Shown here one piece after another: positions 11,278-36,993 of a stretch of 64,000 nucleotides of DNA. The stretch spans positions 1 to 64,000 of the forward strand of contig JAHBVX010000007.1 in NCBI GenBank assembly GCA_019637295.1, in the 5' to 3' direction. A model generated the notes under the pieces. That model had not been told where the DNA came from, ran no database searches, and saw only the letters and a list, made by a program, of their open reading frames with translations. The first letter of the stretch is position 1. Every line of letters begins with the position of its first letter. Source of the stretch: Polyangiaceae bacterium. GTDB taxonomy: Bacteria; Myxococcota_A; Polyangia; Polyangiales; Polyangiaceae. Both the position numbers and the translations under genes were made by a program.

Positions 11278-11279
11278 CG

Positions 11280-12773
11280 ATGGCGACCAAGCGCTTCGAT
11301 CCCAGAAAGCTCATGGAGCTGGCCGTCGACGTGATGGTCCGATCGACGCAGGAGCCGCGCGGCGACGGCAAGGCGAGCCCGCTTGTCGGCGCCGTGCTCT
11401 GGAACGACGGCGTGACCGACACCGCGAGCCGCAGCGAGCTTCGCGACGGCGACCACGCGGAGTTCACGCTCCTCGAGCGGAAGCACCGGAGCGACAAGCT
11501 CGACAACGCCGTCCTCTTCAGCACCCTCGAACCCTGCGCCCCCGGCGCGCGCAAGCACCCGAAGCTCTCCTGCGCCGAGCGCATCGTACTCGCCCGCATC
11601 AAGGAGATCTGGGTCGGCGTCGAAGATCCCGATCCGACCGTCGACCGCAAGGGCATCAAGTACCTCCAGGACAGCGGCGTGAAGGTGCACATGTTCGATC
11701 GCGATCTGCAGGAGCGCATCCGCGATACGAACCGCGAATTCATCGCGCAGGCCGAGGTGCGCGCGGCAGCAGTACGCGAAGGCGGCGGCAAGCAGCCCGC
11801 ATCGCTGTCCGAGTTCGAGGGCCCCCAGCGCGGCGCGACCCTCGACGATCTCGATCCCACTGCGCTGAAGGAGTACCGCGCGACGTTCGACAAGGGCACG
11901 CGCACGGTCCCCGAGTTCCACAAGCGCCTCGCGCAGCAGGGGATCCTCGTCGAGCAAAAGGGCAAGTTCGTTCCGAGCGGCTTTGGCACGCTGCTCTTCG
12001 GCAAACAGCCGCGCGAGCTGCTCCTGCAGGCGGGGCTGCTCGGCACGATCACCTACGAAGACGGCCGCGAGGAGCCGCGCGACTTCGTCGGCCCCGCCAT
12101 CGAGGCTCCCGACCAGGCCATCGCCTGGTTGAAGGACAAGCTGCCGAACCCGATCTCGCGCACGTCGGCCAAGCGCAAGGAGGTCCGCGAGACCTTCTAC
12201 GAGCTGCTGCGCGAGGGCATCGTCAACGCGCTCGTGCATCGCGACTACGCGATCAAGGGCGCTAAGTGCCAGCTCATCGCCAGCCAGCACAAGGTCGTCG
12301 TAATGAGCCCGGGCGCGCCCGTCGAGCCGATCACGATGAAACAGCTCGAGGCATTCGACGCGCCGATGCTGAGCCGCAACCCGGTGATGCACTTCGTCTT
12401 CGGTAAGATGAAGCTCGCCGAGGAGCGTGGGCTCGGCCTGCGGTCGATGCGCGAGCGGGCGTCCGCTGCGGGGCTGCCGTTGCCCTCGTACACGTACAAG
12501 GCGCCGTACGTCGTGCTCACGATGTACCCGGACGCTGCCTCGGTCACGGCTGACGTCAGCGACAACAAGGCACTCGCCGAGCTGAGCGACGCGGAGCGCG
12601 TGGGCTGGGCGTGGCTCGTCACCCGCGAGCGCGCCACGTCGCCGGAGTACCAAGAGGCGCTGGAGCTCCCCAACCGCACGGCGCTCAACCACCTCAAGCG
12701 GATGACCGAGCTTGGACTGCTTCGTCGGGTCGGCGCGGGCCGGGCGACCTACTACGAGGTGGTGCGCCCATGA
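11280..12773 (+). CDS. Cytidine-deaminase-like / GHKL ATPase / winged-HTH fusion
   Basis: 497 aa, 2 bp after the methyltransferase stop. Residues 1-150 look like a zinc-dependent cytidine/deoxycytidylate or RibD-type deaminase: HAE at 59-61 and PC(86)...C(98) give the three zinc ligands and the catalytic Glu61. A middle region around 310-420 has a GHKL-type ATP-binding motif (REGIVNALVHRDY, later GLGLRSMRERA), as in AlbA_2/RecG-like regulators. The C-terminus is a winged helix (ALNHLKRMTELGLLRRVGAGRATYYEV). The deaminase residues are intact, so nucleotide or base deamination is plausible. The GHKL-HTH part looks regulatory. Whether it is an effector, a nucleotide sensor or a regulator between two methyltransferases is unknown. 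Confidence 0.75.
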   Translation: MATKRFDPRKLMELAVDVMVRSTQEPRGDGKASPLVGAVLWNDGVTDTASRSELRDGDHAEFTLLERKHRSDKLDNAVLFSTLEPCAPGARKHPKLSCAERIVLARIKEIWVGVEDPDPTVDRKGIKYLQDSGVKVHMFDRDLQERIRDTNREFIAQAEVRAAAVREGGGKQPASLSEFEGPQRGATLDDLDPTALKEYRATFDKGTRTVPEFHKRLAQQGILVEQKGKFVPSGFGTLLFGKQPRELLLQAGLLGTITYEDGREEPRDFVGPAIEAPDQAIAWLKDKLPNPISRTSAKRKEVRETFYELLREGIVNALVHRDYAIKGAKCQLIASQHKVVVMSPGAPVEPITMKQLEAFDAPMLSRNPVMHFVFGKMKLAEERGLGLRSMRERASAAGLPLPSYTYKAPYVVLTMYPDAASVTADVSDNKALAELSDAERVGWAWLVTRERATSPEYQEALELPNRTALNHLKRMTELGLLRRVGAGRATYYEVVRP

Positions 12774-12910
12774 AATCCCGCCATGAATCTCGCCACGATG
12801 GCGAGATAACTGAGAAGCAGGCGCGGCCGCGGAAGTATCCCGCCATGAATCCCGCCACGATGGCGGGATTCCGGCTCGCAGCAGTCCCGCTCGTGGAGGC
12901 GCCCCGGTGA
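12770..12910 (+). CDS. Small coupled ORF (46 aa) between deaminase and second methyltransferase
   Basis: ATG 12770 overlaps the upstream stop (ATGA), and its TGA (12908-12910) overlaps the ATG of the second methyltransferase (TGATG). Coupling on both sides is what one expects of a translated ORF. The predicted peptide contains a repeated SRHESRHDGE / NPATMAGF pattern produced by the two DNA hairpins described separately. No family is recognised. It could equally be an untranslated spacer that happens to be open; the coupling is the only argument for it. Confidence 0.4.
   Translation: MKSRHESRHDGEITEKQARPRKYPAMNPATMAGFRLAAVPLVEAPR
12774..12871. repeat. Two tandem hairpin units in the operon spacer
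   Basis: Two related units begin with AATCCCGCCATGAAT (12774) and TATCCCGCCATGAAT (12836). Each ends in a perfect hairpin with the same ACGAT loop: ATCTCGCC/GGCGAGAT at 12787-12807 and GAATCCCGCC/GGCGGGATTC at 12847-12871. The arms differ between units (CTC versus CCC) but each keeps full pairing, i.e. compensatory changes, which argues for selection on structure or on a dimeric protein site. It sits directly after a gene whose product ends in a winged helix. Confidence 0.7.
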
Positions 12911-15807
12911 TGCTCGCGACCGAGACCTACCCGCGCCGGCTCATCGAGGTCGATCTCCCGATCGCCCAGGTGTCCGAACACGCGCGCAACGGGCGTTCGG
13001 TCCATCACGGCCACATCACCGCGATCCACATCTGGTGGGCGCGCAAGCCCCTGCCGTCGTGCCGCGCAGCCGCCCTGGCTGCCTCGCTCATCGATCCGCT
13101 CGATCCCGCGTGCCCCGACGCGTTCAAGGCGCAGGCCCGCGACGTCCTCGGGCAGCTCTACGGCACGCCGTTCAGCGGCGACGGCGAGGCGCTCAGGCGC
13201 GGGCTGCTCCGGCTCGTCTCTGACTTCGCGTCGTGGCAGCGCGCTACCGACCCGGCCTTCCGCGACGCCGCGCGCTCGCTCGCATCGTCCGCGCACGCCT
13301 CGTTGTTCGACAGCGGTCCCTCGTTCCTGGCCGATCCGTTCTGCGGTGGCGGCTCGATTCCGCTCGAGGGCCTGCGCCTCGGCACGACGTCCTACGCTTC
13401 CGACCTGAACCCGGTCGCGACGCTCATCAGCAAGGTCACTCTCGAGTACGTCCAGCAGTTCGGGGAGCAGCTCTTCACCGAGGTAACGCGCTGCGGCACG
13501 CAGATCACGAAGCAATCGCGTGAGGAGCTGCAGCAGTTCTACCCCGTCGCGACGGGCGCAGGCGCGCAGATGCCCGTGGCGTACATCTCGTTCCGCCGCA
13601 TTCAGTGCGAGGGTCCGAGGTGTGGCGCCGACGTGGTGCTCACCAGCAAGTTCCACCTGTCGCGCCGTGGCGAACGGACCATCGGCCTCAAGCTTGCGGG
13701 CTGGGATGGAGCGACGCCGAGGTTCGAGATCGCCGAAGGCAGCCTGCGGTCGTTTCCCGAGCCGACGGTTCGGCGTGGCGCCGCGACCTGCCTGAAGTGC
13801 GGCTACACGATCCCGGTCGAGCATGTGCGCGAACAGCTCACCGCACGCTCGGGTGGTGCGCCCTCCGCGCTACTTGTTGCCGTAGCCATCGGCGGGGCCT
13901 CTGGGGAGCGCTCCTTCCGCGCGCCGACCGACGAGGACCACGTCGCGCTGGCAGCGGCCTCGAAGGCCCTGGCCGAGCTCGAGCGGACCCAAGGTGACGA
14001 GCTTCCGAGCGAGCCGCTCCCGCCCATCGGTACGCTCGGCTTCCGCGTGCAGCGCTACGGCATGGTCCGCTGGCGCGATCTCTTCACGCCGCGCCAGCTC
14101 CTGACGCTCACGACGCTCGCGCGTCTCGTGCGCGAGGCGATGCCCGAGGACCGCACACCAAACGGCCTCGGCGTCGCCGTACGCTCGTGCCTCGCGCTCG
14201 CGGTCGATCGCCTCTGCGACTACCAGAACACCGGCTGCTCCTGGAACCCGAGCGGCTCGGCGCTACCGCATCTGTTCACGCGGCAGGCGCTGCCGATCAT
14301 CTGGGACTACGGCGAGGCGAACCCGCTCGCGTCCTCGTCGGGCTCGTGGTCGGGCGCGGTCGAGCACGTCGTTCGTGGTCTGCGCAACGCGCACGTCACA
14401 GCGGGCGGCCACGGCGCCGACGTCGGCATGGCCTCGGCGAGCCACCACCCGCTGCCGACAGACTGCGCGCATATCCTCATCACCGATCCGCCCTACTACG
14501 ACGCCATCCCCTACGCGGACCTCTCGGACTTCTTCTACGTGTGGCTGCGGCGCATGCTCGGCAGCGACCACCCGGAGCTGTTCAGGACCGCGCTCGTGCC
14601 GCGCGAGAACGAAGCGATCGTCAACCCGGTCGCCGGCAAGGACCGCGACTACTACCGGCGCATCATGACCGCTGCGCTCGCCGAGGCGCGGCGTGTGACG
14701 CGTCCCGATGGCATCGGCGTCATCATCTTCGCGCACAAGTCGACGAGCGGTTGGGAGGACCTCCTCGCCGCGATGATCGACGCAGGTTGGATTATCACAG
14801 CCTCGTGGCCCATCGACACGGAGAACGCCTCGCGTCTGCGCGCGAGGAACTCGGCGGTTCTCGGATCGTCGATCCACCTCGTGTGCCGCCCACGCGAGCA
14901 TCGCGACGGACGCCTCATCGTGGACACGGTGGGTGACTGGCGCGACATCCTCTCAGCCCTCCCGAAGCGCATCGCTGAGTGGATGCCCCGGCTCGCCCGC
15001 GAGGGCATCGTCGGCGCCGACGCGATCTTCGCGTGCCTCGGCCCCGCGCTGGAGCTGTTCTCGCGCTACGCCCGCGTCGAAAAAGTCTCCGGCGCGGTCG
15101 TTCCCCTGGAGGAGTATCTGGAGCAGGTCTGGGCGACGGTCTCGCGTGAAGCCCTCGCGATGATCTTCGACGAGGCCGAAACCACAGGTCTCGAAGAGGA
15201 CGCGCGCATCACTGCGATGTGGCTCTGGACGCTCGCGGGTCCGGGCTCCTCGAGGGGCTCGGAAGCCGAAGACGACGAGCCGGCTGGCGATGACCAGAGC
15301 GCCGATGGCGAAGGAACGCTGGCCGGTTTCAGCCTCGAGTACGACGCCGCCCGCAAGATTGCCCAAGGGCTCGGCGCGCGTCTCGAAGCCCTCGACCACG
15401 TCGTTGAGGTGAAGGGCGAGACCGCGCGCCTTCTCGCCGTTGCCGAGCGCACGAAGTACCTCTTCGGCGCTGCCGAAGAGGTTCCCGCGCCGAAGCGGTC
15501 GTCGAAGAAGAAGCAGATGTCGCTCTTCGCGGAGCTGGAACATGCTGCCGAGGAGCAGGGCTGGGGTGACGTCGGCTCGCCCAAGGCAGGCGCCACGTCG
15601 CTCGACCGCGTCCATCAGGCGATGTTGCTCTTCGCCTCCGGGCGCGGTGAGGCGCTGAAGCGCTTCCTGGTGCAGGAGGGCGTCGGCCAAGGCCCGCTGT
15701 TCTGGAAGCTCGCCCAATCGTTCTCGGCCCTCTACCCAAGCGGCTCCGATGAGAAGCGCTGGGTCGATGGCGTGCTCGCGCGCAAGAAGGGGCTGGGCTT
15801 CGGATGA
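12910..15807 (+). CDS. DUF1156 adenine-type DNA methyltransferase (second copy)
   Basis: 965 aa from ATG 12910, chosen for its TGATG coupling to the small ORF and the GGAGG at 12895-12899; GTG 12907 is the alternative. The layout matches the first copy: LIEVDLPIAQVSEHAR and IWWARKPLPSCRA at the N-terminus, motif I DPFCGGGSIP near residue 142, zinc ribbon CEGPRC...CLKCGY, and DPPYYDAIPYADLSDFFY near 526. The two copies share long identical runs in the catalytic core and C-terminus but differ in the middle (probable target-recognition) parts. This suggests different sequence specificity rather than redundancy. The stop overlaps the next ATG. Confidence 0.88.
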   Translation: MLATETYPRRLIEVDLPIAQVSEHARNGRSVHHGHITAIHIWWARKPLPSCRAAALAASLIDPLDPACPDAFKAQARDVLGQLYGTPFSGDGEALRRGLLRLVSDFASWQRATDPAFRDAARSLASSAHASLFDSGPSFLADPFCGGGSIPLEGLRLGTTSYASDLNPVATLISKVTLEYVQQFGEQLFTEVTRCGTQITKQSREELQQFYPVATGAGAQMPVAYISFRRIQCEGPRCGADVVLTSKFHLSRRGERTIGLKLAGWDGATPRFEIAEGSLRSFPEPTVRRGAATCLKCGYTIPVEHVREQLTARSGGAPSALLVAVAIGGASGERSFRAPTDEDHVALAAASKALAELERTQGDELPSEPLPPIGTLGFRVQRYGMVRWRDLFTPRQLLTLTTLARLVREAMPEDRTPNGLGVAVRSCLALAVDRLCDYQNTGCSWNPSGSALPHLFTRQALPIIWDYGEANPLASSSGSWSGAVEHVVRGLRNAHVTAGGHGADVGMASASHHPLPTDCAHILITDPPYYDAIPYADLSDFFYVWLRRMLGSDHPELFRTALVPRENEAIVNPVAGKDRDYYRRIMTAALAEARRVTRPDGIGVIIFAHKSTSGWEDLLAAMIDAGWIITASWPIDTENASRLRARNSAVLGSSIHLVCRPREHRDGRLIVDTVGDWRDILSALPKRIAEWMPRLAREGIVGADAIFACLGPALELFSRYARVEKVSGAVVPLEEYLEQVWATVSREALAMIFDEAETTGLEEDARITAMWLWTLAGPGSSRGSEAEDDEPAGDDQSADGEGTLAGFSLEYDAARKIAQGLGARLEALDHVVEVKGETARLLAVAERTKYLFGAAEEVPAPKRSSKKKQMSLFAELEHAAEEQGWGDVGSPKAGATSLDRVHQAMLLFASGRGEALKRFLVQEGVGQGPLFWKLAQSFSALYPSGSDEKRWVDGVLARKKGLGFG

Positions 15808-16397
15808 GTGCGCTGGCCACCAAATGGGCGTCGCACTTCTTCGAGACTCTCGGAGACGACCGGCTCGCCACCGACGAGCTTCGGGATGCCTCAGTGCGCT
15901 CCGACCTCGCGAGGTGGACGTCGGCGCTCACGAGCCTGGTCGTGCGCTCGTTCGAGACGATGGGCTGGGCGGCCGCTGGCAAGGGCCACCGCTGCGCGGT
16001 CCTACCCGTGAAGCGCAACGAGTACCTCTCGCAAGACGTGATGGCGTTCTCGACGCCGGGCGAGGGCTGGCGCTTCCCGCTCGCGGTGTGCGAGCTCGAG
16101 AACTCGGCGGACGCGGACCTCGTCGCCTACTCGCTGTGGAAGGTGCTCTGCGTTCGGTGCGGTCTGCGCGTTGTCTTCTGCTACCGGCCCGACGCCGCAG
16201 ACGGCCCTGCGTTCGTCGCGTCGCTCGCGGGCGCAGTGGTCGAGGCAATGCCCATCGCCGAGCGCGCGTCGCTCGACGGCGAGACGCTGGTGATCGTCGG
16301 CTCGCGCAACGACGCGGGGACCTTCCCCTACGGATTCTTTCAGGCGTGGAAGCTCAACTCCAACACGGGGCGTTTCGAGCGCTTCGCGCGGCAGTGA
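15804..16397 (+). CDS. Conserved small protein of the DUF499/DUF1156 operon, possibly DUF3780-like
   Basis: 197 aa starting inside the methyltransferase stop (ATGA) and ending 13 bp before the DUF499 gene. I do not recognise a definite domain. Its position between a DUF1156 methyltransferase and a DUF499 ATPase is where DUF3780 proteins are usually found, so that is the best guess. Visible features are a compact alpha/beta composition, the run AVCELENSADADLVAYSLWK followed by VLCVRCGLRVVFCYR, and no signal peptide or membrane helix. The E-x-N...W pattern faintly resembles nuclease-fold accessory proteins, but no catalytic set can be assigned. Confidence 0.65.
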   Translation: MSALATKWASHFFETLGDDRLATDELRDASVRSDLARWTSALTSLVVRSFETMGWAAAGKGHRCAVLPVKRNEYLSQDVMAFSTPGEGWRFPLAVCELENSADADLVAYSLWKVLCVRCGLRVVFCYRPDAADGPAFVASLAGAVVEAMPIAERASLDGETLVIVGSRNDAGTFPYGFFQAWKLNSNTGRFERFARQ

Positions 16398-16410
16398 AAG
16401 TGAGAAGAAC

Positions 16411-19221
16411 ATGGCAATGAAGCCCTGGTACAAAATCGTGACTCCGCGCGAGGATCTGCGCGAAGGCAAGCCGCTCGACGCGTCTGAATTCGCGGTCCAC
16501 CTCGACCACGTTCGCGATGGGCGCGCCCCGGCTGTGTACCAGAACCCGGCCGAGTTCTTCGAGCGCACCTTCCTCACGAAGAACCTTGGCGAGCTCACCG
16601 CGCAGGTCGTGCGGCGCCTATCGGGCGTGAAGGTCGAGACCTCGGCCATCTTCAACCTTTCGACGCAGTTCGGCGGCGGTAAGACCCACTCGCTGACCTT
16701 GCTCTTCCACCTCGCCCAGAACGGCGACGCGTCGAAGTCGTGGAAGGGCGTGAGCGGCATCCTGCAGAACGCGGGCGTGACCACCGTGCCGAAGGCCGCG
16801 ACGGCCATCTTCGTCGGAACCGAGTTCGACTCCATCACCGGTCGTGGTGGCCACGACGGCACGCCGCTGCGCAAGACGCCGTGGGGCGAGATCGCCTTCC
16901 AGCTTGGTGGCGAGGAGGGCTTCAAGCTCGTCGAGCAGCACGAGAAGGAGCTGACCGCGCCCGGAGGCGACGTCATCGAGCGCATGCTCCCGAAGGGCAA
17001 GCCGACGCTCATCCTGTTCGACGAGCTGATGAACTATGTGAGCCGCAGCCGCAAGAGCGGGCTCGCCAGCCAGCTCTACACGTTCCTGCACAACCTCTCC
17101 GAGGTCGCGCGCGGCCGCGACAACGTCGTGTTGGCCGTGTCGATCCCGGCGTCCGAGCTGGAAATGACTGCCGAGGACCAGTCCGACTTCGAGCGCTTCA
17201 AGAAGCTGCTCGACCGTCTCGGCAAGGCTGTGATCATGTCGGCCGAGGCCGAGACCTCGGAGATCATTCGCCGGCGCCTCTTCGAGTGGCAGGGGCTGCC
17301 GAAGGACGCCATCGCAACCATCGAGGAGTACGAGGCGTGGCTGCAGGCCAACAAGCAGCAGCTCCCGAGCTGGTTCCCGGTCGAGAACGCACGCGAGGCG
17401 ATGAAGGCCTCGTACCCGTTTCATCCGTCGCTGCTCTCCGTGTTCGAGCGCAAGTGGCAGGGCCTCCCTCGCTTCCAGCAGACGCGCGGCGTGCTGCGGC
17501 TCCTCGCGCTGTGGGTCTCGAAGGCCTACGCCGAGGGCTACAAGGGGGCGCACAAGGACCCGCTCATCTCGCTCGGGACGGCGCCCCTCGAAGACCCGCT
17601 GTTCCGCGCGGCGCTCTTCGAGCAGCTCGGGGAGGCACGCCTCGAGCCCGCCGTAACCACGGACATCGCCGGCAAGGACCACGCGCACGCGCTGCGGCTC
17701 GACACGGAGGCGACGCCCGAGCTGAAGAAGGCGCGCCTTCATCGCAAGGTCGCGACGACGATCTTGTTCGAGTCGAACGGAGGTCAGCAACGCGGGGAGG
17801 CGACATTGCCCGAGGTGCGCCTCGCGGTGGCCGAGCCTGCGCTCGACATCGGCAACGTCGAGCAGTGCCTCGAAGCACTGACCGACAGTTGTTACTTCCT
17901 CGCGGCCGAGAAGAACCGCTACCGCTTCAGCTTCCAGCCGAACCTCAACAAGCTCCTCGCGGATCGCCGCGCGAGCGTCAGCACTTCGTCGATCGACGAA
18001 GTGGTGCGTAAGGAAATCCAGAAGGTCTTCGGAGCAGGCACGGGCCTCGAACGCGTCTACTTCCCGAAGAAGAGCAACGACGTGCCCGACCGCGCTTTGC
18101 TCACGCTCGTCGTGCTGGCTCCCGAAAACACGGCAGCGGAGCCTGCGACGAAGAACCTGATCTCTACAATGACGACCGAGAGCGGCGCATCCTCGCGCAC
18201 GTTCAAGAGCGCGCTCATCTGGATCGTGCCGGAGGACGCAACGACGCTCCTCGAGGAGGCCCGCAAGCTGCTGGCGTGGAAGGACATCGAGGCGGACTCT
18301 GGCGAGCTGAAGCTCGATGAGACGCAGCAGCGGCAACTCACCGAAAACACCAAGCGCGCCGAGCGCGATCTGCGCGAGGCTGTGTGGCGGGCGTACAAGA
18401 ACGTCTTCCTGCTCGCCGACGACAACTCGCTGAGGAAGATCGACCTCGGGCTCGTTCACTCGAGTGCGGCGGGCTCGCTGGTGGAGTTGATCCTCGCGCG
18501 CCTCCGGCAGGAGGACATCGTCGTCGAGGGCGTAAGCCCCAACTTCCTCACGCGCTACTGGCCGCCCGCGCTGCCCGAGTGGAGCACGAAGTCGGTGCGG
18601 GACGCCTTCTATGCCTCGCCCAAGTTCCCGAGGCTGCTGAAGCCGGATGCCGTCAAGGACACGATCTCGCGCGGCCTTGACGCGGGCACCGTCGCGTACG
18701 TCGGCAAGGCGAGCGACGGCGCCTACGAGCCGTTCGTCTACAAGCGCTCCCTCGGCTCTGGCGACATCGAGATCGCAGACGACGTGTACCTGATCGTCCG
18801 CGAGCGTGCGGAGGAGTACGTGGCCAAGATGGCTGCGCCCCCTTCGCCCACGGGCGCGACACCGCCCGTATCGGGAGGCGAGGCGCAGCCCACCCCTGGA
18901 ACGCCCACGGGCGCGCCCCAGGGCGCCACGACGGGCATCCTGCGGGGCGGCTCGCCCACGCCCACGACCTCGGGGTCTTCGGAGCCGCCGCCCGGCACCG
19001 AGATCGCGGGCTTTCATTGGAGCGGGGAGATCTCGCCGCAGAAATGGATGAACTTCTACACGAAGGTCCTCTCGCGCTTCGCGACCAGCGGAGGCTTGAA
19101 GCTCACAGTCTCGGTCGACGTGGAGCCGCCTGGTGGCACCACGGTGTCGAAGGTGGAGGAGACCAAGGTGGCGCTCCGCGAGCTCGGGCTCTCGGAGGAC
19201 GTCGATCTCAAGCGGCGATGA
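16411..19221 (+). CDS. DUF499 P-loop ATPase
   Basis: 936 aa. Walker A is FGGGKTHS with Lys91, and Walker B is LILFDELMNYVSR with Asp204-Glu205. These motifs and the N-terminal KPWYKIVTPREDLREGK are typical of DUF499 ATPases. The last 130 residues contain a Pro/Gly/Thr-rich linker (about 812-870) and a small C-terminal domain. ATG 16411 follows an AGTGAGAAGAAC leader; ATG 16417 is also possible. It is the last gene of the + operon. It plays the part BrxC plays in BREX: a large ATPase beside methyltransferase and helicase genes. No PglZ homologue accompanies it. Confidence 0.85.
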   Translation: MAMKPWYKIVTPREDLREGKPLDASEFAVHLDHVRDGRAPAVYQNPAEFFERTFLTKNLGELTAQVVRRLSGVKVETSAIFNLSTQFGGGKTHSLTLLFHLAQNGDASKSWKGVSGILQNAGVTTVPKAATAIFVGTEFDSITGRGGHDGTPLRKTPWGEIAFQLGGEEGFKLVEQHEKELTAPGGDVIERMLPKGKPTLILFDELMNYVSRSRKSGLASQLYTFLHNLSEVARGRDNVVLAVSIPASELEMTAEDQSDFERFKKLLDRLGKAVIMSAEAETSEIIRRRLFEWQGLPKDAIATIEEYEAWLQANKQQLPSWFPVENAREAMKASYPFHPSLLSVFERKWQGLPRFQQTRGVLRLLALWVSKAYAEGYKGAHKDPLISLGTAPLEDPLFRAALFEQLGEARLEPAVTTDIAGKDHAHALRLDTEATPELKKARLHRKVATTILFESNGGQQRGEATLPEVRLAVAEPALDIGNVEQCLEALTDSCYFLAAEKNRYRFSFQPNLNKLLADRRASVSTSSIDEVVRKEIQKVFGAGTGLERVYFPKKSNDVPDRALLTLVVLAPENTAAEPATKNLISTMTTESGASSRTFKSALIWIVPEDATTLLEEARKLLAWKDIEADSGELKLDETQQRQLTENTKRAERDLREAVWRAYKNVFLLADDNSLRKIDLGLVHSSAAGSLVELILARLRQEDIVVEGVSPNFLTRYWPPALPEWSTKSVRDAFYASPKFPRLLKPDAVKDTISRGLDAGTVAYVGKASDGAYEPFVYKRSLGSGDIEIADDVYLIVRERAEEYVAKMAAPPSPTGATPPVSGGEAQPTPGTPTGAPQGATTGILRGGSPTPTTSGSSEPPPGTEIAGFHWSGEISPQKWMNFYTKVLSRFATSGGLKLTVSVDVEPPGGTTVSKVEETKVALRELGLSEDVDLKRR

Positions 19222-21082: not shown

Positions 21083-22084
21083 TTAACTGGCCAGCGCATC
21101 GGCGCCCCCCATCGACGTCGCGAAGGGGCAAAGCGCGGGCGCGCAGCCCGCGCACGGGGCGGCGCGTCCCGAGCAAGCGTCCCCTCGCGCCACGCGGTTG
21201 GACTTCGAGCAGAACGCGTAGAGCGCCTGCTGGACGAGCCTCGGCGAGTAGCTCGGAAGGTCGGGCCGGAACTCGCGCAGGTCGAGCTGGGCGGCCTGCT
21301 CGCGCACCCACCGCTCGCGCGCGTCGTAGGTCTTGGCTGCACCCGGCTCGCGAAGGGCGTCCACCGCACGCGCGACGTTCGTGTCGACGACGACCAGGTC
21401 GTTGCCGTCGATGTCCGGGAACCACGGCGTGAGCCCCGGGGCGAGCGCCGGCGTGGAGAGCGCGCTGACGAACATGGTCGCGAGCTTGCGTCCGACCCGG
21501 TGGACGCGCGCGAAGCGCTCCACGAGTAGCGCGGCTCGCTTCGTTGGCGAGGCCTCGTTGCGGCAGACCTCGGCGAGCACCTCGCGCACGCCACCGTCCT
21601 TCCAGAGCCGAAGCCACGCGGAGGTGGGCAGCTTGCCCATGTCCCCCATGCGGTTGAAGACGCCCGTTCCGTCCTTCACGTGGCAGGCGGTGCCGGGGCA
21701 CCTGCCGCAGTCGACGGCCTCGCCGACCTTCGCGACGTCGCAGCCCTCCTCGAACGCGTCGGCCGTGCGCAGCACCGAGCACTCGTGCCGAGCGATCGAC
21801 CGCTTCACGGAGGCGGCGTCCGCGACCACGCGCATCGCCGCGCGCGACAGCGATTGCTGCTGCCGCATGATGACCACGTCGCGCAGCGCCTGGTACATCG
21901 AGAGCGTGACGAAGAGGCGGAAGACAGCAGCGTCGACTCCGGCGGCGAGTTCGTCAGGGGAGACTGCGAAGGCGCCGACGCGGTCGGGGTCGCAGTAGAA
22001 CGGCACGCGGCCGCTTGACTGCTCGGCGTCGTAGAACCAGCGGACGACGGTCGCGAGCTGCTCACGCGGCGGGCGCTTGGACAC
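21083..22084 (-). CDS. Predicted HhH-GPD DNA glycosylase/AP lyase with Fe-S loop, last gene of the BREX operon
   Basis: 333 aa from GTG 22084, 2 bp after the brxA stop. Residues 194-204 (VHRVGRKLATM) match the helix-hairpin-helix of endonuclease III, with Lys200 where the AP-lyase lysine lies. VVVDTNVARAVDAL at 231-244 matches the PVDTHVxR segment, with Asp234 as the catalytic aspartate. The C-terminus has C304-x6-C311-x2-C314-x4-C319, close to the C-x6-C-x2-C-x5-C Fe-S loop of that family. A second cysteine cluster (C115, C126, C129, C134) is unusual, as is the ~180-residue N-terminal extension. Predicted activity: base excision and strand cleavage. Co-transcription with BREX suggests an accessory nuclease or repair role; both are inference. 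Confidence 0.7.
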   Translation of the reverse strand: MSKRPPREQLATVVRWFYDAEQSSGRVPFYCDPDRVGAFAVSPDELAAGVDAAVFRLFVTLSMYQALRDVVIMRQQQSLSRAAMRVVADAASVKRSIARHECSVLRTADAFEEGCDVAKVGEAVDCGRCPGTACHVKDGTGVFNRMGDMGKLPTSAWLRLWKDGGVREVLAEVCRNEASPTKRAALLVERFARVHRVGRKLATMFVSALSTPALAPGLTPWFPDIDGNDLVVVDTNVARAVDALREPGAAKTYDARERWVREQAAQLDLREFRPDLPSYSPRLVQQALYAFCSKSNRVARGDACSGRAAPCAGCAPALCPFATSMGGADALAS

Positions 22085-22833: not shown

Positions 22834-24894
22834 CTAGGCGCTCCCGACGGTGATGAATGGAACAAGCAGTTCTTCAAGCGCAATGCCTCCGTGGCCCACG
22901 TTCCGCGAGCCCTCGGTGATGAAGGCTCGTCGTTCGGAGGCGATCAAGGCTCGATAGTCGTCGGGCAGCGCAATCTGCGGCCAGGCGATCGTGGTGGGGT
23001 ACTGCGCTTGGACCTTCGCGCGCATGAGGTCGTCGGCGAATACGTGAACGCGCTCGCCGCGCGCGTCCGCAACTGCTCCGACGTTCGGCTTTCCAAACCC
23101 GATGGCCTCGACGTTGCCGTGATCGGCGGTGATGACCACCTCGTACCCGAGCCCGAGCAGCGTCTCGACGAGCCCTTGGAACGCACCGGTTTCGCCCCAG
23201 TGACGAACTTGCGCGTGGAACCCTTCAGCGCCAGTGACTGCCCCGTGCATCATCTGGTCGACCATCCCGACGACGATGCCCAGCACGCGACACCGCGGGT
23301 GCGAGGCCGCCTCCTTCACCCGCTCGAGAAGCCGCTCGTCGGGCTCCTGGCTCTTCTGGCAGATGTACGCCACCTCCGCGCGGCTTGCGTCGCGGTCTTC
23401 CCAGAAGCGTCGCCAATGAGCTTCCTCTTTGTGCGTCGTCGCGAGGCTTCCCGAGAAGTAGAACGGCGGCTCACCTGCGAAGATGGACTGGCGCGAGACC
23501 GAGGTCAGCGTCGGGACCCACGCGAAGATGGCGTGCTCGCTGAGGCGATGGTTGCGACCCGCGAGCTGCGTTCGCAGGAGCGTCCACTGGCTGAGCGCGA
23601 GCCCGTCCATGACCAGCAACGCGATTCGCTTTGCGGTCGTTCCTCCTCGAGAGGCCGGCGTCCAGCCATGCGCAAGGTAGCGCGGGACGTGATGCACCAT
23701 GACCGCCAGCGGCAGGTACGACACGTTGTGTAGGGATGCGTAGTGCGCGAGCATCCAGCGCGTGAAGGTGTCGTCGACACGCCTCTCGAGCGCGGTGATG
23801 GCGCCAGACCGGGGCTCGAGCACTCGGCTGCCCAGCGTCCATCGAAGTGCGCTCCACTCTGCCCAACGCCAAGCCGTCTCCGTCCACGCACGGTAGCCGT
23901 CCGCCTCGCCGGGGAGACTGTGCTCAAGGGCCTCCGTGAGCCGCGCGAAGCGAAGTTGGGCATCCTCGACCTCGTCCCCCCGCACACCGACTGCAAGCCA
24001 GGTCCCTTCAACAGAGGCCTTCGGCAGCACCGCCGTCGGAGCGAGAATCCCCTCGAGAAACAAGCTGTCGATGTAGACCCGGACGTCTTCGTGTTCGAAG
24101 GGCAGGTCAGTCGGACCAGCGACGCGCAAGCCGTACGGCTCGACAGGTTCCGCAACGCCCCTGCCGCTGGTCTTCTGGCGCTCGACGAACAGCGGCCATC
24201 GTTCCTGCAGAAATGCGAAAAACTGCTCTCGATGGGGAACGAGCGTCTGCAACGGCCAGCTGGCGAAACGCTTGGTTTCCTCGAGCAACGCGATCAACCG
24301 AGCATCGAGGCACGCCGGAAGCTGTTGAGCGCGGTAGTGACGCCGCAAGAGGACGCGCAGGAGATCGGCGGCGGTGCGGATCTGCTCGGGCGAAATCTCG
24401 AAGACATGACGAAGGAGGAAGTCCTTCGTCGCGTTGTCGCCCAGCACACCCGGTTCGTTCAGCGCAAGCGCTCGGTGAAGCGCGTCAAAGGTGCTGCTAT
24501 CGAGCTCGTCCAAGACGGCCGGGGAGAGGTTCGGGAAAAGCTCTGCCCGACTGAATCGCAGGAGCCTCCGCTCCCTCTGGGCACACTCGAGCAGGTCGAA
24601 CGGGAGCTTGGTCGCGTCCTCGTGAATCGTATGAAGTAGGACCACCAGGTTGGTCTGGTCTCCCCGATCCCACGCCTGGCGATACCGCGTCTCGTACGCG
24701 TATCGGAACGCAACGTGATCCTCGAAGGGAATCAGGTCGAAGCCTCGCGCACGAATGCCGTCGAGAATCGCCTCCTCGCTCAGGAGCCGATCAGGATCGG
24801 CCACGATGGTGAGCCGAGCGACCGTCGCAATCTCCTTGGTGAAGTGCGCCAGGATCGGATCGCGCCAGCTGCTCAGGCTGCCGCCGGTTGTCAT
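22834..24894 (-). CDS. pglZ: PglZ, alkaline-phosphatase-superfamily BREX protein
   Basis: 686 aa from ATG 24894, which overlaps the helicase stop (ATGA); a longer in-frame extension upstream is rejected because it would run inside brxHII. The C-terminal half has the PglZ metal-site motifs: IALLVMDGLA near residue 429, TSVSRQSIFAG (nucleophile region), VGMVDQMMHG, and VVITADHGN near 590. The C-terminus NVGHGGIALEELLVPF is typical of the family. PglZ is the signature gene of BREX and is required for both host methylation and phage restriction. Confidence 0.93.
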   Translation of the reverse strand: MTTGGSLSSWRDPILAHFTKEIATVARLTIVADPDRLLSEEAILDGIRARGFDLIPFEDHVAFRYAYETRYRQAWDRGDQTNLVVLLHTIHEDATKLPFDLLECAQRERRLLRFSRAELFPNLSPAVLDELDSSTFDALHRALALNEPGVLGDNATKDFLLRHVFEISPEQIRTAADLLRVLLRRHYRAQQLPACLDARLIALLEETKRFASWPLQTLVPHREQFFAFLQERWPLFVERQKTSGRGVAEPVEPYGLRVAGPTDLPFEHEDVRVYIDSLFLEGILAPTAVLPKASVEGTWLAVGVRGDEVEDAQLRFARLTEALEHSLPGEADGYRAWTETAWRWAEWSALRWTLGSRVLEPRSGAITALERRVDDTFTRWMLAHYASLHNVSYLPLAVMVHHVPRYLAHGWTPASRGGTTAKRIALLVMDGLALSQWTLLRTQLAGRNHRLSEHAIFAWVPTLTSVSRQSIFAGEPPFYFSGSLATTHKEEAHWRRFWEDRDASRAEVAYICQKSQEPDERLLERVKEAASHPRCRVLGIVVGMVDQMMHGAVTGAEGFHAQVRHWGETGAFQGLVETLLGLGYEVVITADHGNVEAIGFGKPNVGAVADARGERVHVFADDLMRAKVQAQYPTTIAWPQIALPDDYRALIASERRAFITEGSRNVGHGGIALEELLVPFITVGSA

Positions 24895-27713
24895 GACAGC
24901 TCCCCGGGTGCCGCCACGCGAACAACCAGAATGGCACTGAGTTCCGGAAGAGCCGACGAGCGCACGGCCAGCTCCGCAGCGAGCGCTTTCTCCTCCTCGG
25001 CGAGTTGCGCGAGACGGTGATCGCGAACCTGCGGAAGTCCGATGCGCTCGATTGCGCGGCGTCGCGAGGAGATGGCCTGGGCCGACTTCTGCTTCTCCTG
25101 CTCGAGGTAGCGGCGATGGTTGCCGAGGAGCTCGTCGTAGAGGGGACGCCCGGCCTCTTCCGCGCGACGCCGCGTGTCTTCGTACGCAGCTCGAGCCGGC
25201 TCGCCGACCAGCGCAGCCGGCCGAAGGAGGACGCGCTCCGGGTCGAGTTCCAGAACTCGTTCCCACACGACCCGCGCAGTAGGACCCAACACTCGTCCGT
25301 CGTCGCTCACGAAAAGCGGCAGAATCCTCCGTGCCCGGCTGCCGCCGCCATCGAGCGCGATCCGCCAGAGCGACCAGAGGCCACACACCTTGTCGGAGAT
25401 CTCTGGGATCACGATGGAGGTGATCGGATTGCCGGGCGCGAAGAATCCCAGCTGCGCGGCGATCCCCCGAACGTGTGGTTCCTCGAGAGTCACGTGTCGC
25501 GCGCCAGGCGCCTGGCTCGGGGCGAAGGTCGCCCGCGCCAACTCCGTGCCATCCGGCCAGCGCAGCGTGTAGCCGACGTCGTCCGCCTCGACGCGCGCAC
25601 CCACGTCGCGTCGGCTTCGAAGGTAGGCGAGCGTCATTCTCTCGGTCCAGAACGGCACTTGGTGTCCCGCCAGTCGCTGGGCAGCCTCGGGGCTCAGCGC
25701 CTCACTGGGGCCGAGCACCTTGGTCCCGTCCCTGGCTGCAAGGGCACGGCTCCTCAGCTCGGCTGCCAGGGCCTCCGCCCGTTCAACTGCCTTGTCGGGC
25801 TGGCGCATCGCCGCGACGTACAGATCCTCGAAGTCGGGGCCGCCCTCCTCTGAGTCCAGGACGTCCGCAAGCTTGTCGACCCCGAACTCCTCCAGGATCT
25901 TCGCGAGCTTCGCCTCCAGCACCTCGCGGACTCGCAGCTCGACGGTGTCCTGCAGCGCAAAGTTGAGCGCTTGGACGACGTGCTTCTGCCCGATGCGGTC
26001 GACGCGTCCGATGCGCTGCTCGATCTTCATCGGGTTCCACGGAAGGTCGTAGTTCACGATGACGTGACAGAACTGCAGGTTGAGACCTTCGCCGCCCGCG
26101 TCCGTCGAGATGAGCACCTGGGCGTCGTCGGCGAACGCGCGTTGCACCGAGCGTCGCTCGTCGAGCCCCATGGAACCGTTTAAGCAGGTCACTCGGAACC
26201 CGCGCTCCTGGAGATACGTTGCGAGCATCTCTTGAGTCGGCACGAACTCGGTGAAGACGAGGACCTTCACGAGCGGGTCCGCCTCTTCCCTTTGGAGGCG
26301 GTGAATGTGCTCGAGCAGCGCCTGCGCCTTGGCGTCCGGGCCCTTCGCTTCGCACCGACGTGCGGCGGAAAGGAGTAGCTCGACCTCAGCCCGTTCGTTC
26401 TTGAGGCCTTTCAAGCGAGACTTCAAGACGCTCTCGAGCTGCTCCTGACCATCGAGGGCTCCCCAGGCATCGCCGATGTCCTCGCCGAAGAGGGAGAGCT
26501 GCCCCTCCGGCAACTCGAGCACTTCGAGACGGCGTTCCAGCGACTGCCGAATGGCGCGCGTGCTCGAGGTGACGAGGCGCTGCATGAGGATCATGAGGAA
26601 GCCGATCGCGCGCCGCTGCTCCTGGATGGCCTGGTTGTAGCCATCCCGCACGTAGTCCGTGACGGCCGCATAGAGCGCTTGCTGCTCTGAACCGCTTGCT
26701 CCCCAGGTCACCGCCACCAGCTGCGTGCGACGTGGCTTGAACAGCGGACTGCCCTCGGCGTCGATCGCTCGTCGCTTCTCCGTCCTGATCACGTAGGGCG
26801 CGACCCGCGACTGACTCACGGAGTCGTCGTCCGGAAATGCCTGCGGGTCGAGGAACGAGATCAGCCGCCGGAAGCCGTCGGTCTTACCCTGGTGAGGGGT
26901 CGCGCTGAGCAGCAGGAGATACGGAGCCGCCTGCCCGAGTGCTTCACCCAGTCGATAGCGCGCGACCTGATCCGTCGACCCACCAAGCCGGTGGGCCTCG
27001 TCGATGATGATGAGGTCCCATCCAGCAGAGACAAGGTCGTCGAAGCGCTCGCGGTTGAAGCGGGCCACCTGCTCTCGGGTCCAGCCGCGACGGGCATCGA
27101 GCGGCTTCACGGAGTCGAGGGGACAGACCACCTGGTCGTGCAGGCGCCAGGCGTTCGCCTCTTCGTCCAGCCCGACCAGCTCGCGCACTGCAGACAGGTC
27201 GCTCGGGATGACGAGTCGGAAGGTCTCGTCGAAGTGGGTCTTCAACTCTTGCACCCACTGCGTCACGAGGCCCGCGGGCGCGACCACGAGCACCCGGCGA
27301 ACGAGCCCGCGGATCTTCAACTCGCGGAAGATGAGCCCCGCCTCGACGGTCTTTCCGAGTCCAACCTCGTCAGCGAGGAGGTACCGAACGCGATCACTCG
27401 ACATCGCGCGCGCCAGCGCATGAACCTGGTGCGGCAGCGGGATGACGGTTCCTTCGAGCGGCGCCACAAGGGCGTCGCGCGCCATCGCGTCGGCGATCCG
27501 CGCAGCAGCGCTGACGAACGCAAGCTCGTTACAGACAACGTCTGCGGGGCGCGTCCCGTAGGGCACGAGGCGCGGCTCCGCAACGCGAAGCACGGTCGAC
27601 TGGGTCGGGAGCCAGACGCGATAGGCGCGCGAGCCCCAAACCTCCTCCACGTCCACGACCTGGCAAGGTGCCTGGCTCGCGGTCTCGATGGCCCAGTCTC
27701 CGCGCTTCAGCAT
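24891..27713 (-). CDS. brxHII: BrxHII, SNF2-like DEAH helicase of BREX type III
   Basis: 940 aa. Motif I DEVGLGKTVEAG is around residues 115-126, DEAHRLGG around 218, LLSATPHQGKTDGF follows, then FTEFVPTQEM, STDAGGEGLNLQFC and QRIGRVDRIGQ, making a complete SF2/SNF2 motor. It lies between pglXI and pglZ as in type III BREX. It shares general architecture with the DUF3883 helicase of the facing operon but lacks the DUF3883 tail; its C-terminus is a helical bundle. Confidence 0.9.
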   Translation of the reverse strand: MLKRGDWAIETASQAPCQVVDVEEVWGSRAYRVWLPTQSTVLRVAEPRLVPYGTRPADVVCNELAFVSAAARIADAMARDALVAPLEGTVIPLPHQVHALARAMSSDRVRYLLADEVGLGKTVEAGLIFRELKIRGLVRRVLVVAPAGLVTQWVQELKTHFDETFRLVIPSDLSAVRELVGLDEEANAWRLHDQVVCPLDSVKPLDARRGWTREQVARFNRERFDDLVSAGWDLIIIDEAHRLGGSTDQVARYRLGEALGQAAPYLLLLSATPHQGKTDGFRRLISFLDPQAFPDDDSVSQSRVAPYVIRTEKRRAIDAEGSPLFKPRRTQLVAVTWGASGSEQQALYAAVTDYVRDGYNQAIQEQRRAIGFLMILMQRLVTSSTRAIRQSLERRLEVLELPEGQLSLFGEDIGDAWGALDGQEQLESVLKSRLKGLKNERAEVELLLSAARRCEAKGPDAKAQALLEHIHRLQREEADPLVKVLVFTEFVPTQEMLATYLQERGFRVTCLNGSMGLDERRSVQRAFADDAQVLISTDAGGEGLNLQFCHVIVNYDLPWNPMKIEQRIGRVDRIGQKHVVQALNFALQDTVELRVREVLEAKLAKILEEFGVDKLADVLDSEEGGPDFEDLYVAAMRQPDKAVERAEALAAELRSRALAARDGTKVLGPSEALSPEAAQRLAGHQVPFWTERMTLAYLRSRRDVGARVEADDVGYTLRWPDGTELARATFAPSQAPGARHVTLEEPHVRGIAAQLGFFAPGNPITSIVIPEISDKVCGLWSLWRIALDGGGSRARRILPLFVSDDGRVLGPTARVVWERVLELDPERVLLRPAALVGEPARAAYEDTRRRAEEAGRPLYDELLGNHRRYLEQEKQKSAQAISSRRRAIERIGLPQVRDHRLAQLAEEEKALAAELAVRSSALPELSAILVVRVAAPGELS

Positions 27714-27717: not shown

Positions 27718-30498
27718 CTACTCTCCCACTCGCATGCTGGCGACGTCGTAGTACATCAGCAGCTTCTCGTCCTCCTGCAGGACGCTCTCCGGAAGCTTCT
27801 GAGCGACGCTGACGATGGTGGCGTAGTCCTTCGCGTCGTACGCAGCCTTGAACCCGACGCGAACAGACTCGGTGCGGAACAACTTGAGCTTCTTCGCCTT
27901 CGAGGTCTTGTAGTCCTCGAACTCGCGAAGCAACGCCTTCTCCCGCAGCTTCTCGAGGTCGAGCGCCTTGTTGGGATCGGGCACATACCAGCGGCCCTTC
28001 GCCTTGGCGACGAGCTCGGCATCCTCCTTCGAGAGGTTCCGCAGCTCTTTGAAGTTGGTGCTCAGATACCGATGGATCTGACTCGGCACCGGGGCGACGC
28101 CGTCGTACTCGAGGAAGTTGTCCCGGAGCAGATTACGCAACTCGATGGTCTGTTCGTGCTTGGCCCACGACTGCAGCTCCCGCATGAAGACCGGCGTGAG
28201 TTCCTGAGCGGAGCGAGGCCGAGACGTCAGCTCCCTTCGCAGCCACTGGATGGCGCTCGCCTCGTCGACGACGAAGAGGCTCAGCTGTTTCACCTCGGAG
28301 ACGCTCGCCCGGCGCCGGTCGTAGTCGGCCACCTGCTCGGGGAGAAAGTACATCCCGTCGCGTTCAGCGAAGCGCTGCGCCAGACCAGCGAAGAAGAGCG
28401 GCCCGCCGATCGGAACGCCGACTCCGTGCTGCACGTGATAGGCGACCATGCGATCGTGCAGCATCTGCGGCGTCCGCTCGGAGATGACCTCGCCCTCCGT
28501 CGCGGGGCCGACGAACTTCGGCACGTTGCTCAGATGCTCGCGCACGAAGGCCCACGCGGTCTCCTCGGTTGTCGTGCCGAGGACGAACTTCTTCTCCAGT
28601 GCCTCGCTGGGCTTGTACGCCGAGATGACGAGGTCCTGCTTCACAGCGCTGCTCGTGACCTGGCGGTAGGACCCTTGCTGCTTGTCGAGCGTGCGTACGT
28701 CCGCGACCACGAACCCGGCGACGCCCATCGCCTCCTGGATTGCGCGCCAAACGCCGTTGCTGGAGTTGCTGAAGACGACCGTCATCCAGCGCCCAGGCTT
28801 GAGCACGCGGAAGTACTCCGCAAAGCACCGCCGCATGAGTTCCTGATACTCGTAGAGGCCCTTCTTTTTCGGCTGATCGATGATGGCTTCGGGCTGCGAA
28901 TCTGAGAGGACGCGATGCCAAGACTCAACGAGATAGTTCAGGTCCGCGTAGAAGATGTTCTCGCCGAAAGGTGGGTCGGTGAACACGTAGTCGACAGATG
29001 CATCAGCCACTCCGATGTTCGTGCACGAGCCTGTGGCGACCGCAGCAACGCGGCGCGAAGCGCTCGCCCCCTGCAGCACGGCGAACACCTTCGCGAGCCG
29101 CGCGAGCTTCCCGTCGAGGATGTACCAGGGGCTGAGCTCGGCGTGCTGCGAGGGAATGTAGTAGACACCGGTCAAGTACTGGCTGACCTGCGAGAATCCC
29201 GTCGGTCGAAACCGATTCATCACCGAGGACGTCCAGATCGCTTGCTCGACGAACCAGAGCAACATCCGTCGGACGGATGGATCCGCAACCGCACTCGACT
29301 TTTCCCACAACAAACCAAGGGCAGCGGCAGCGCGAGGCAGAAAGAAGTGATGGGCGTGCGTGAAACCTTTGGGCGCGATTCGGGAGCCGTGAGCCATCTT
29401 CTCGATGGGGAATCTGTTGACCGGGACTGACGCTCGCAGAGGCAGTCGCGCAATGCGCGCGAGGAGGTCCTCGTCGCGGCTGTCGGGCTTCTTCGTGTGG
29501 TTCTTCTCGCCGTGCGAGTAATTGATCAGGACCGGGCGCATTCGAATGCGCTTCCACGGCTCACCAGTTGCTGGATCGATGAGGGTCTCGAAGTTGCGTT
29601 CGAGATTGTCCTTGTTGAGAACGGCCGAACACTTCGGACAGGGAAACTCGCCCCTCGTCTGGTTCGAGTCAGCGTCCAGGGCCTCGTCTACGAACACGAT
29701 CTCGCCAGCGCACTCCGGGCAGTGAAAGACCTCGCTCCACACCGTGAAGTTGATTCGGCCGACCGTCTTGCCGTCGGCGTGAACGGTCTCGTACATCCAT
29801 CCGAGTTCGGCCTCGACCTCGTCTAGGATTCGCTGGCCATGGGCAGCGAAGGCGCTGGGATCGAATGCGAGATTGTAGCCGGCCGCGATCATCGTAGCGG
29901 CGGGCGAAAGGTCATTCAGGACCGCAAGCCGCGGTCCCCAGGCAGGAGGAGGCAACCCTTCTCGCTTCCACTCGCTCTCGACCTCCTTGCGGTACGACTC
30001 GGGTGCTGCGCTGCACCACAGCGCAGCGACGCCAGTCATTCCCGAACCACAGAAGCCATCCAACACAACGTCGCCCGGCTTCGTGTAGTGCAGGATCGAG
30101 GGGACAATCGCGAGATGCGGAACCTTGGTGTGATAGCTGTGCGCCTTGTAGAGCGAGTCGCTCTTGCCGACGCTTACGTCGATCGCGAAGGGGTCGCGAT
30201 GGTACGCATCGCTGGCTCGGTAAGCCTTGCCGTAGTGCGCGACGAGTTCGGTGAGAAACGGGTTGGGGCACGCGGTGTAGAAAGGCGGGTCGGACAGCCG
30301 AAGGATGTCCTCGTCGCTCGCGACCGGAAATCCCTCGATGCGGCGAAACGCCGGGTCCTTCAGCCTCTCTCGCAACAGATTGGTGAAGTGCTCACGCCGA
30401 GCAGCATCACTTTCGAACTTGTGGCCGAGGCACTCCACCGGTCCTGACGTGGACGTGTGAGCGGCGAGGCCGAGGTTTTTCTGTTTCTGCTTGGTCAC
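27718..30498 (-). CDS. pglXI: PglXI, DNA methyltransferase of BREX type III
   Basis: 926 aa from GTG 30498, preceded by a purine-rich GAGGGGG; it starts 13 bp after brxC. An N-terminal SDPPFYTACPNPFL segment (residues 69-82) precedes SAM motif I VVLDGFCGSGMTG (about 144-156). Two CxxC pairs (CPEC, CPKC) form a zinc ribbon, and catalytic TDPPFGENIFYADL lies near 505. DPPF and this order predict adenine methylation. In BREX this enzyme marks the host genome at a non-palindromic motif and is needed to spare self DNA. Confidence 0.92.
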   Translation of the reverse strand: MTKQKQKNLGLAAHTSTSGPVECLGHKFESDAARREHFTNLLRERLKDPAFRRIEGFPVASDEDILRLSDPPFYTACPNPFLTELVAHYGKAYRASDAYHRDPFAIDVSVGKSDSLYKAHSYHTKVPHLAIVPSILHYTKPGDVVLDGFCGSGMTGVAALWCSAAPESYRKEVESEWKREGLPPPAWGPRLAVLNDLSPAATMIAAGYNLAFDPSAFAAHGQRILDEVEAELGWMYETVHADGKTVGRINFTVWSEVFHCPECAGEIVFVDEALDADSNQTRGEFPCPKCSAVLNKDNLERNFETLIDPATGEPWKRIRMRPVLINYSHGEKNHTKKPDSRDEDLLARIARLPLRASVPVNRFPIEKMAHGSRIAPKGFTHAHHFFLPRAAAALGLLWEKSSAVADPSVRRMLLWFVEQAIWTSSVMNRFRPTGFSQVSQYLTGVYYIPSQHAELSPWYILDGKLARLAKVFAVLQGASASRRVAAVATGSCTNIGVADASVDYVFTDPPFGENIFYADLNYLVESWHRVLSDSQPEAIIDQPKKKGLYEYQELMRRCFAEYFRVLKPGRWMTVVFSNSSNGVWRAIQEAMGVAGFVVADVRTLDKQQGSYRQVTSSAVKQDLVISAYKPSEALEKKFVLGTTTEETAWAFVREHLSNVPKFVGPATEGEVISERTPQMLHDRMVAYHVQHGVGVPIGGPLFFAGLAQRFAERDGMYFLPEQVADYDRRRASVSEVKQLSLFVVDEASAIQWLRRELTSRPRSAQELTPVFMRELQSWAKHEQTIELRNLLRDNFLEYDGVAPVPSQIHRYLSTNFKELRNLSKEDAELVAKAKGRWYVPDPNKALDLEKLREKALLREFEDYKTSKAKKLKLFRTESVRVGFKAAYDAKDYATIVSVAQKLPESVLQEDEKLLMYYDVASMRVGE

Positions 30499-34732: not shown

Positions 34733-34917
34733 TTCGTACCCTTCGCTTCCAGCTTCTGCCGTTCGATCCACGCGTCGATGTCGTCGCGCTTGAACCGCCA
34801 CTGCCCGCCAACCTTGAACGCCGGGAGCGCGCCCTTCTGGGCCATCGTGTAGACGGTTTTCTCCGCGACCTTCAGCAACTGTGCGACCTCGGGCAGTGTG
34901 AGTATCTCGTCCGGCAT
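34729..34917 (-). CDS. Excisionase-family HTH protein heading the BREX operon
   Basis: 62 aa, almost identical over its first 50 residues to the HTH protein at 4678-4881 (DEILTLPEVAQLLKVAEKTV, then PAFKV-GQWRFKR). ATG 34917 directly follows the conserved operator-like DNA. Its stop overlaps the brxF start. A MerR/excisionase-like fold at the head of a BREX operon fits an autoregulator. Because its paralogue controls the facing operon through the same upstream DNA, cross-regulation is likely (inference). Confidence 0.87.
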   Translation of the reverse strand: MPDEILTLPEVAQLLKVAEKTVYTMAQKGALPAFKVGGQWRFKRDDIDAWIERQKLEAKGTK

Positions 34918-34920
34918 GGG

Positions 34921-34985: not shown

Positions 34986-35023
34986 GCCGGCGGCCGCAAC
35001 GGATCACGGGGCTCCGACGACGA

Positions 35024-35449: not shown

Positions 35450-36989
<1,540 letters not shown>

Positions 36990-36993
<4 letters not shown>

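Follow-up and report, generated by a model that had tools for sequence, protein, structure and literature searches.

Introduction

The DNA glycosylases known so far in phage defence adopt UDG, AAG or HALFPIPE folds, as represented by Brig1, Brig3 and R.PabI. Brig1 is an anti-phage DNA glycosylase whose homologues function by themselves and are often found close to BREX (PMC11078745), Brig3 is an anti-phage DNA glycosylase with an AAG-like fold found in defence islands (PMC13160076), and the R.PabI restriction glycosylases combine base excision with AP lyase activity against foreign DNA (PMC10273834). A 2026 survey of the auxiliary and backup nucleases of BREX and DUF499 (Hma) systems lists HNH, HKD, PD-(D/E)XK, TOPRIM, HEPN, PIN and Schlafen effectors in its main text, and that text makes no mention of glycosylases, HhH proteins or base excision (PMC12839542). 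Likewise, the main text of a survey of Druantia and ARMADA contains no glycosylase or HhH protein (PMC12458937).

Here, we describe a glycosylase-like gene in a 64,000-nucleotide stretch of a Polyangiaceae genome (hereafter the window), which a first-pass annotation had read as a DNA glycosylase/AP lyase appended to a BREX type III operon. Its relatives lie beside many anti-phage systems, with Druantia foremost, and this suggests a shared, previously unrecognised weapon against phage DNA. No earlier description of the family was found in the main texts of that part of the literature which was searched by name.

Results

The gene and its BREX setting

The 333-aa open reading frame is real and starts 2 bp past brxA on the same minus strand (Table 1), as the first-pass annotation had it. 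The BREX type III operon is complete, with six of six genes in the canonical order brxF-brxC-pglXI-brxHII-pglZ-brxA according to PADLOC, Pfam and NCBIfam, and the glycosylase gene is single-copy in the source genome by a genome search. It had also been placed outside the standard type III set, which agrees with its distribution: the BREX-III BrxC occurs in 11 of 379 Myxococcota genomes, and the family adjoins BREX in one of these 11, that of the window.

Table 1. Features of the glycosylase gene and its surroundings (positions in the window)
Feature	Position	Strand	Evidence or remark
Divergent HhH-GPD DNA glycosylase/AP lyase (predicted), 333 aa	21083..22084	-	GTG start 22084, stop 21083
C-terminal four-Cys loop C304-x6-C311-x2-C314-x4-C319, predicted [4Fe-4S] site	21128..21175	-	conservation, profile alignment
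GPD loop VVVDTNVA	21371..21394	-	D234 aligned with D of VDTHV in EndoIII
D234, predicted catalytic aspartate, in VDTNVAR	codon 21383-21385	-	37/37
Degenerate helix-hairpin-helix, residues 180-210	21455..21547	-	holds K200, aligned with K of GRKTAN in EndoIII
K200, predicted Schiff-base lysine, in HRVGRKLA	codon 21485-21487	-	37/37
Second four-Cys module C102/C115/C126/C134 with short beta hairpin, putative metal site	21683..21781	-	37/37 each
brxA, 248 aa	22087..22833	-	PADLOC BrxA E 4e-59
pglZ (BREX type 3)	22834..24894	-	NCBIfam BREX_PglZ_3 700 bits
brxHII helicase	24891..27713	-	PADLOC 1327 bits
pglXI adenine methyltransferase	27718..30498	-	PADLOC 1294 bits
brxC, type III (DUF6079)	30512..34210	-	PADLOC 1838 bits, Pfam PF19557
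brxF	34223..34732	-	NCBIfam BREX_3_BrxF 171 bits
Head module of mobile element, BREX side	34729..37465	-	shared with L017/L040, L052, partly L041
Small HTH	34729-34917	-	head module
ParB/HTH-like	35024-35449	-	head module
Large serine recombinase	35446-36993	-	head module
Two small ORFs	36990-37175, 37172-37465	-	head module
Hma-type (DUF499 BREX-related) operon	4878..19221	+	convergent with glycosylase gene

Predicted fold and conserved residues

Two AlphaFold2 models were made, from alignments of 15 and then 38 sequences, with pLDDT values of 85 and 92. In Foldseek comparisons, HhH-GPD enzymes (OGG, MutY, EndoIII) ranked first, though remotely: the best PDB neighbours were almost all HhH-GPD glycosylases (TmOgg2, 3n0u, prob 0.99; OGG1; MutY; MjOgg), and CacOGG was matched with prob 0.93-0.96. 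The OGG-type matches had a TM of 0.28-0.56 depending on the target and E>0.05, the top structure matches all had E>0.005, and none of the PDB matches reached E<0.001; the kinship to HhH-GPD enzymes is therefore remote. The 38-sequence model, which has the higher pLDDT, gave slightly weaker structure matches than the 15-sequence model. The best viral match was the EndoIII of the haloarchaeal Halogranum tailed virus 1 (prob 1.00, TM 0.62), followed by a phage amino acid:DNA transferase (AADT; prob 0.99).

Profile alignment placed the predicted catalytic and the C-terminal cysteine positions on those of EndoIII/MutY, but the Pfam HhH-GPD score stays below its cut-off. With hhalign, the family aligned to an EndoIII+MutY profile built from related genomes with a probability of 72% (E 3e-5), pairing VGRKLA with VGRKTA, VVVDTNVARAV with VVVDTHVQRLS and the C-terminal cysteines with the Fe-S loop, versus 0.1-1.1% for unrelated families and reversed alignments used as negative controls. 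Pfam HhH-GPD gave 12.4 bits on the window protein against a cut-off of 26.2, which is a detection threshold and not a structural feature, so that membership is claimed here as a divergent relative; the same model was seen in 2 of 15 family members at E<1. PADLOC, NCBIfam and PHROGs held no model of the family, and PDB sequence searches returned no relevant match, whether started from the single protein or from either of the two profiles. Since no library model reaches threshold, the family is very divergent and unnamed.

A hairpin lysine combined with a downstream aspartate makes a bifunctional glycosylase/lyase in EndoIII and OGG1. Conservation of the corresponding residues is established over 37 proteins, namely the window protein and 36 relatives with 30-79% identity to it: K200, D234, C102, C115, C126, C134, C311 and C319 are kept in 37/37, and C304 and C314 in 36/37, a near-invariance that argues against chance. 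The lysine, the aspartate, the C-x6-C-x2-C-x4-C loop and the second cysteine cluster all stand where the first-pass annotation had put them. The hairpin is degenerate, reading R-V-G-R-K in place of L-P-G-V-G-x-K in the clade of the window and R-V-S-x-K in Druantia-linked relatives, which have lost the hairpin glycine. Spacing of the C-terminal cysteines varies among relatives (5-7/2/4-9), with four of them falling outside the searched pattern. The second four-Cys module is inserted ahead of the helix-hairpin-helix, and in the AlphaFold model it carries strands at 118-120 and 123-125. Together, the structure comparison, the controlled profile-profile alignment and the invariant residues back the earlier reading as a glycosylase/AP lyase with an iron-sulphur site, and support a predicted divergent HhH-GPD fold with a C-terminal Fe-S loop.

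The structural match to AADT raises another reading, in which the protein, like these aGPT-Pplase enzymes, decorates bases without excising them, for example to mark host DNA. Their hairpin lysine is kept in 7/7, as in the window family. The aspartate, however, is present in 3/7 AADTs as opposed to 37/37 for D234, the four-Cys loop is nearly invariant in the family, and hhalign gave a probability of 0.1% for AADT versus 72% for EndoIII/MutY. In addition, no partner genes for thymidine hypermodification were recognised in the family neighbourhoods, and we give a DNA-modifying activity only the slimmest chance.

Distribution and phylogeny

Full-length relatives occur in 15 of 379 Myxococcota genomes, that of the window included; a further match, in G040, was a chance alignment within a large protein and was left out of the 15. 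Scanning one genome per species yielded 38 loci, mostly from Myxococcota and Deltaproteobacteria, with a few from Planctomycetota, Nitrospirae, Alphaproteobacteria, Wallbacteria, Binatia, Comamonas and Aromatoleum. No family copies were present in the plasmid and phage records searched, and the sole match on a viral contig (L110) lies, by eye, among transposase and TIR-like genes and not phage genes, and is probably bacterial.

The tree has two well-supported, deeply split clades, one of them linked to Druantia and the other promiscuous. BREX III partners appear at three separate places on it, and the closest relative of the window protein (L037, 79% identity) is found in an Hma operon. Partners thus scattered, including that of L037, indicate that the gene moves between systems.

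Defence neighbourhoods

Genes were called at each of 39 loci, including the window, and identified by PADLOC, Pfam and BLAST. Defence components adjoin the gene at 34/39 loci: Druantia at 13, Hma at 6, GmrSD and/or HEPN at 5, BREX III at 3, IetAS and DndH-like systems at 2 each, a methyltransferase at 2 and Pbe at 1, with 5 loci left without assignment. The expected association with BREX was found at two further loci (L049 and L067), which together with the window represent three separate lineages, but BREX is a minor partner (3/39). The proposed role of accessory effector fits defence systems in general, but a BREX accessory is too narrow a description. At 20/39 loci, the distance from the preceding gene on the same strand to the start of the family gene is -4 to +28 bp. 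Matches to a defence reference set lay within 1.5 kb at 27/37 family loci, a figure inflated because the set was drawn partly from family neighbourhoods, versus 0/31 housekeeping HhH-GPD loci, a figure free of that inflation. Linkage to defence is established on these counts.

Druantia is the foremost partner. DruA1 occurs in 9 of 379 Myxococcota genomes, and in 9/9 of these a family member lies no more than 10 kb from a DruA-type gene of the same contig (hypergeometric p 1e-14), a co-occurrence that concerns the other, Druantia-linked clade and not the window gene itself. At Myxococcus qinghaiensis L055, a Druantia type I operon that includes DruD and DruE has the gene placed between DruA and its remaining genes. 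The family gene is missing from five distant Druantia loci on plasmids, and the tie is therefore to one Druantia lineage and not to a universal Druantia core. In haloarchaeal Druantia-FtsK plasmids, the glycosylase-equivalent slot is occupied by a 368-aa protein that looks CoiA-like by eye (L116:4195-5301) and is not a relative.

A recurrent triad of a HATPase (weakly MzaB-like), DruA and the glycosylase was observed at L052, L053, L055, L057, L060, L064, L066, L068 and L069. The cargo behind it varies, consisting of Druantia type I genes or of a 1000-aa protein and a DpdE-like helicase, and the triad is possibly a new Druantia layout. On the Hma side, HmaC occurs in 37 of 379 genomes with the family adjacent or nearly so in 3, and the relatives at L037, L038, L039 and L043 adjoin the matching HmaC clade.

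Many of these partners bring methyltransferases (PglXI, HmaB/DUF1156, N4/N6 enzymes), and repair enzymes share the fold, as would be expected of a host-protecting partner that clears bases which the host's own defence has damaged or wrongly modified, such as stray methylation products. The IetAS, HEPN and most Druantia neighbourhoods, however, hold no recognised methyltransferase or base-damaging enzyme, and the remaining 10 of the 11 BREX-III genomes of the phylum do without the gene beside BREX; a repair partner of this kind seems quite unlikely. The mechanistically unrelated effectors of the partners would also suit a general trigger, that is, a non-catalytic sensor of DNA lesions or redox state, with Fe-S and Cys4 sites, that licenses the partner system. 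Such a sensor would account for two predicted metal-binding clusters, yet it would have no need of K200 or D234, residues that both of the deeply split clades keep without exception, and we hold it to be very improbable.

Mobile setting and the remainder of the window

The BREX operon is preceded by a head module (Table 1), and related copies of parts of it, at 2-1020 and 4678-4881, stand before the IetA-like and Hma genes. Since the two related modules (34729-37465 for BREX, 2-4881 for the IetA-like and Hma genes) face each other, the window comprises two inward-pointing defence cassettes. All or part of the module is found again at L017/L040, L041, L052, L053 and L055, with a recombinase 87% identical at L017/L040. 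Moreover, the GNAT-like gene by the glycosylase is 95% identical to the one by a relative at L018/L034. Shared mobile head modules explain the exchange of partners; they do not give the function of the glycosylase.

Such mobility is what would be expected if the gene were a self-sufficient anti-phage glycosylase directed, like Brig1, against one type of modified base and riding defence islands with no mechanistic tie to its neighbours. Closely related members of the promiscuous clade can differ in partner, as the window (BREX) and L037 (Hma) do, a common serine-recombinase head precedes unrelated cargo, and the gene at L046 lies >1.2 kb from either called neighbour; Brig1 homologues, too, work alone and are frequent near BREX. 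Against this stand the overlapping ATGA junctions, the 9/9 co-occurrence with DruA1 and the recurrent HATPase-DruA-glycosylase order, and in the Druantia clade this tight coupling points to functional integration. Mere co-transport is, in our view, unlikely.

Several other features of the window were recorded. At 1135-4517, an AAA ATPase 40% identical to the IetA of L033 has a 746-aa protein behind it, where IetS would stand, and the pair is probably IetAS. Within the Hma operon, between two DUF1156 methyltransferases, a protein at 11280-12773 carries a RibD/cytidine-deaminase-like domain and a RecG-C HATPase_c_4 domain; pairing it with the glycosylase to deaminate and then excise was dropped, as the deaminase-like gene recurs only at L051, as a fragment. 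The GNAT-like gene (19768-20532) lies in the region 19258-20532 together with a degenerate second copy, seen as a direct repeat of 126 bp at 83%, and an array of 12-bp units repeated in tandem at 19446-19577. Three tandem tyrosine-recombinase-like genes at 38233-41521, named by eye, recall recombinase-in-trio elements. A large minus-strand operon at 44769-57606 includes an SF1 (Upf1/DNA2-like) helicase at 51015-54341, beside which a solved-structure search with an 826-aa protein found no relative.

Discussion

The glycosylase is not BREX-specific. Of its two clades, one is almost always present in Druantia of the DruA1 type. Members of the other, promiscuous clade, to which the window gene belongs, have changed hands between BREX III, Hma, IetAS, GmrSD/HEPN and Pbe operons, in part aboard elements that share a serine-recombinase head. 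The reading we favour, by a small margin over even chance, is that a divergent Fe-S HhH-GPD (EndoIII/MutY/OGG) glycosylase/AP lyase is employed by DNA-targeting anti-phage systems as an auxiliary effector. A broader form of this reading is tentative and falls somewhat short of an even chance: an unrecognised family of HhH-GPD Fe-S glycosylase/lyases would be a general plug-in effector of immunity, a standing part of DruA1 Druantia in Myxococcota that has been recruited repeatedly by BREX III, Hma, IetAS, GmrSD/HEPN and Pbe, and it would destroy phage DNA by removing modified or otherwise marked bases. Against an effector role, it is hard to see what IetAS, composed of an AAA ATPase and a subtilase, would need a glycosylase for. 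The main mechanistic rivals are the host-repair role and an amino acid:DNA-transferase-like activity.

We infer base excision and lyase activity, along with the choice of substrate and of phage rather than host DNA as the target, and the following sequence of events can be envisaged. The helical domain would scan DNA and flip a base out, D234 and K200 (through a Schiff base) would take the base off and nick the strand by beta-elimination, and the C-terminal [4Fe-4S] loop would hold the DNA backbone. The additional Cys4 module and the N-terminal helices may serve in substrate choice or in binding the partner system. Left with abasic sites and nicks, the invading DNA could then fail to replicate or lie open to the helicases and nucleases of the partner.

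If the effector reading is true, a classical repair fold (EndoIII/MutY/OGG) enters phage defence, one lineage of Druantia operons gains an overlooked part, and hosts of BREX, Hma and Druantia have a concrete candidate means of dealing with phages whose bases are modified. The system is tractable, comprising one gene, two predicted catalytic residues and defined operons, such as those of Myxococcus qinghaiensis L055 and Aromatoleum L057.

Comparison with known systems

With EndoIII/MutY, the family shares the hairpin lysine (of EndoIII), the aspartate in VDT(H/N)V and the C-x6-C-x2-C-x(4-5)-C loop. It differs in a Cys4 module not known from EndoIII/MutY, in long N-terminal helices and in its link to defence operons, whereas EndoIII/MutY are housekeeping enzymes. 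The lysine and the aspartate are 34 residues apart in the window protein, as opposed to 18-19 in EndoIII/OGG1. OGG1, Ogg2 and CacOGG are the nearest solved structures, with bifunctional Lys/Asp chemistry in common as predicted for the window family, and the match is remote. Phage amino acid:DNA transferases are neighbours in the HhH fold that keep the lysine, but in alignment they have no evident C-terminal four-Cys loop.

Among defence systems, the auxiliary nucleases of BREX and Hma described in the main text of the 2026 survey are alike in role, being extra effectors appended to operons (PMC12839542). R.PabI differs from the window family in its HALFPIPE fold, its sequence specificity and its block by cognate methylation, and no Fe-S cluster has been described for it. 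The likeness to Brig1 and Brig3 is one of concept, a glycosylase deployed as phage defence in defence islands, and these two are the natural precedents for the effector reading, both with other folds. The glycosylases among the structure matches of the window protein were all of the HhH-GPD fold, with no UDG-superfamily or AAG-like fold among them. Brig1 is a mainly monofunctional member of the uracil-DNA glycosylase superfamily, whereas the window family is of the HhH-GPD type, with a predicted lyase lysine and Fe-S loop.
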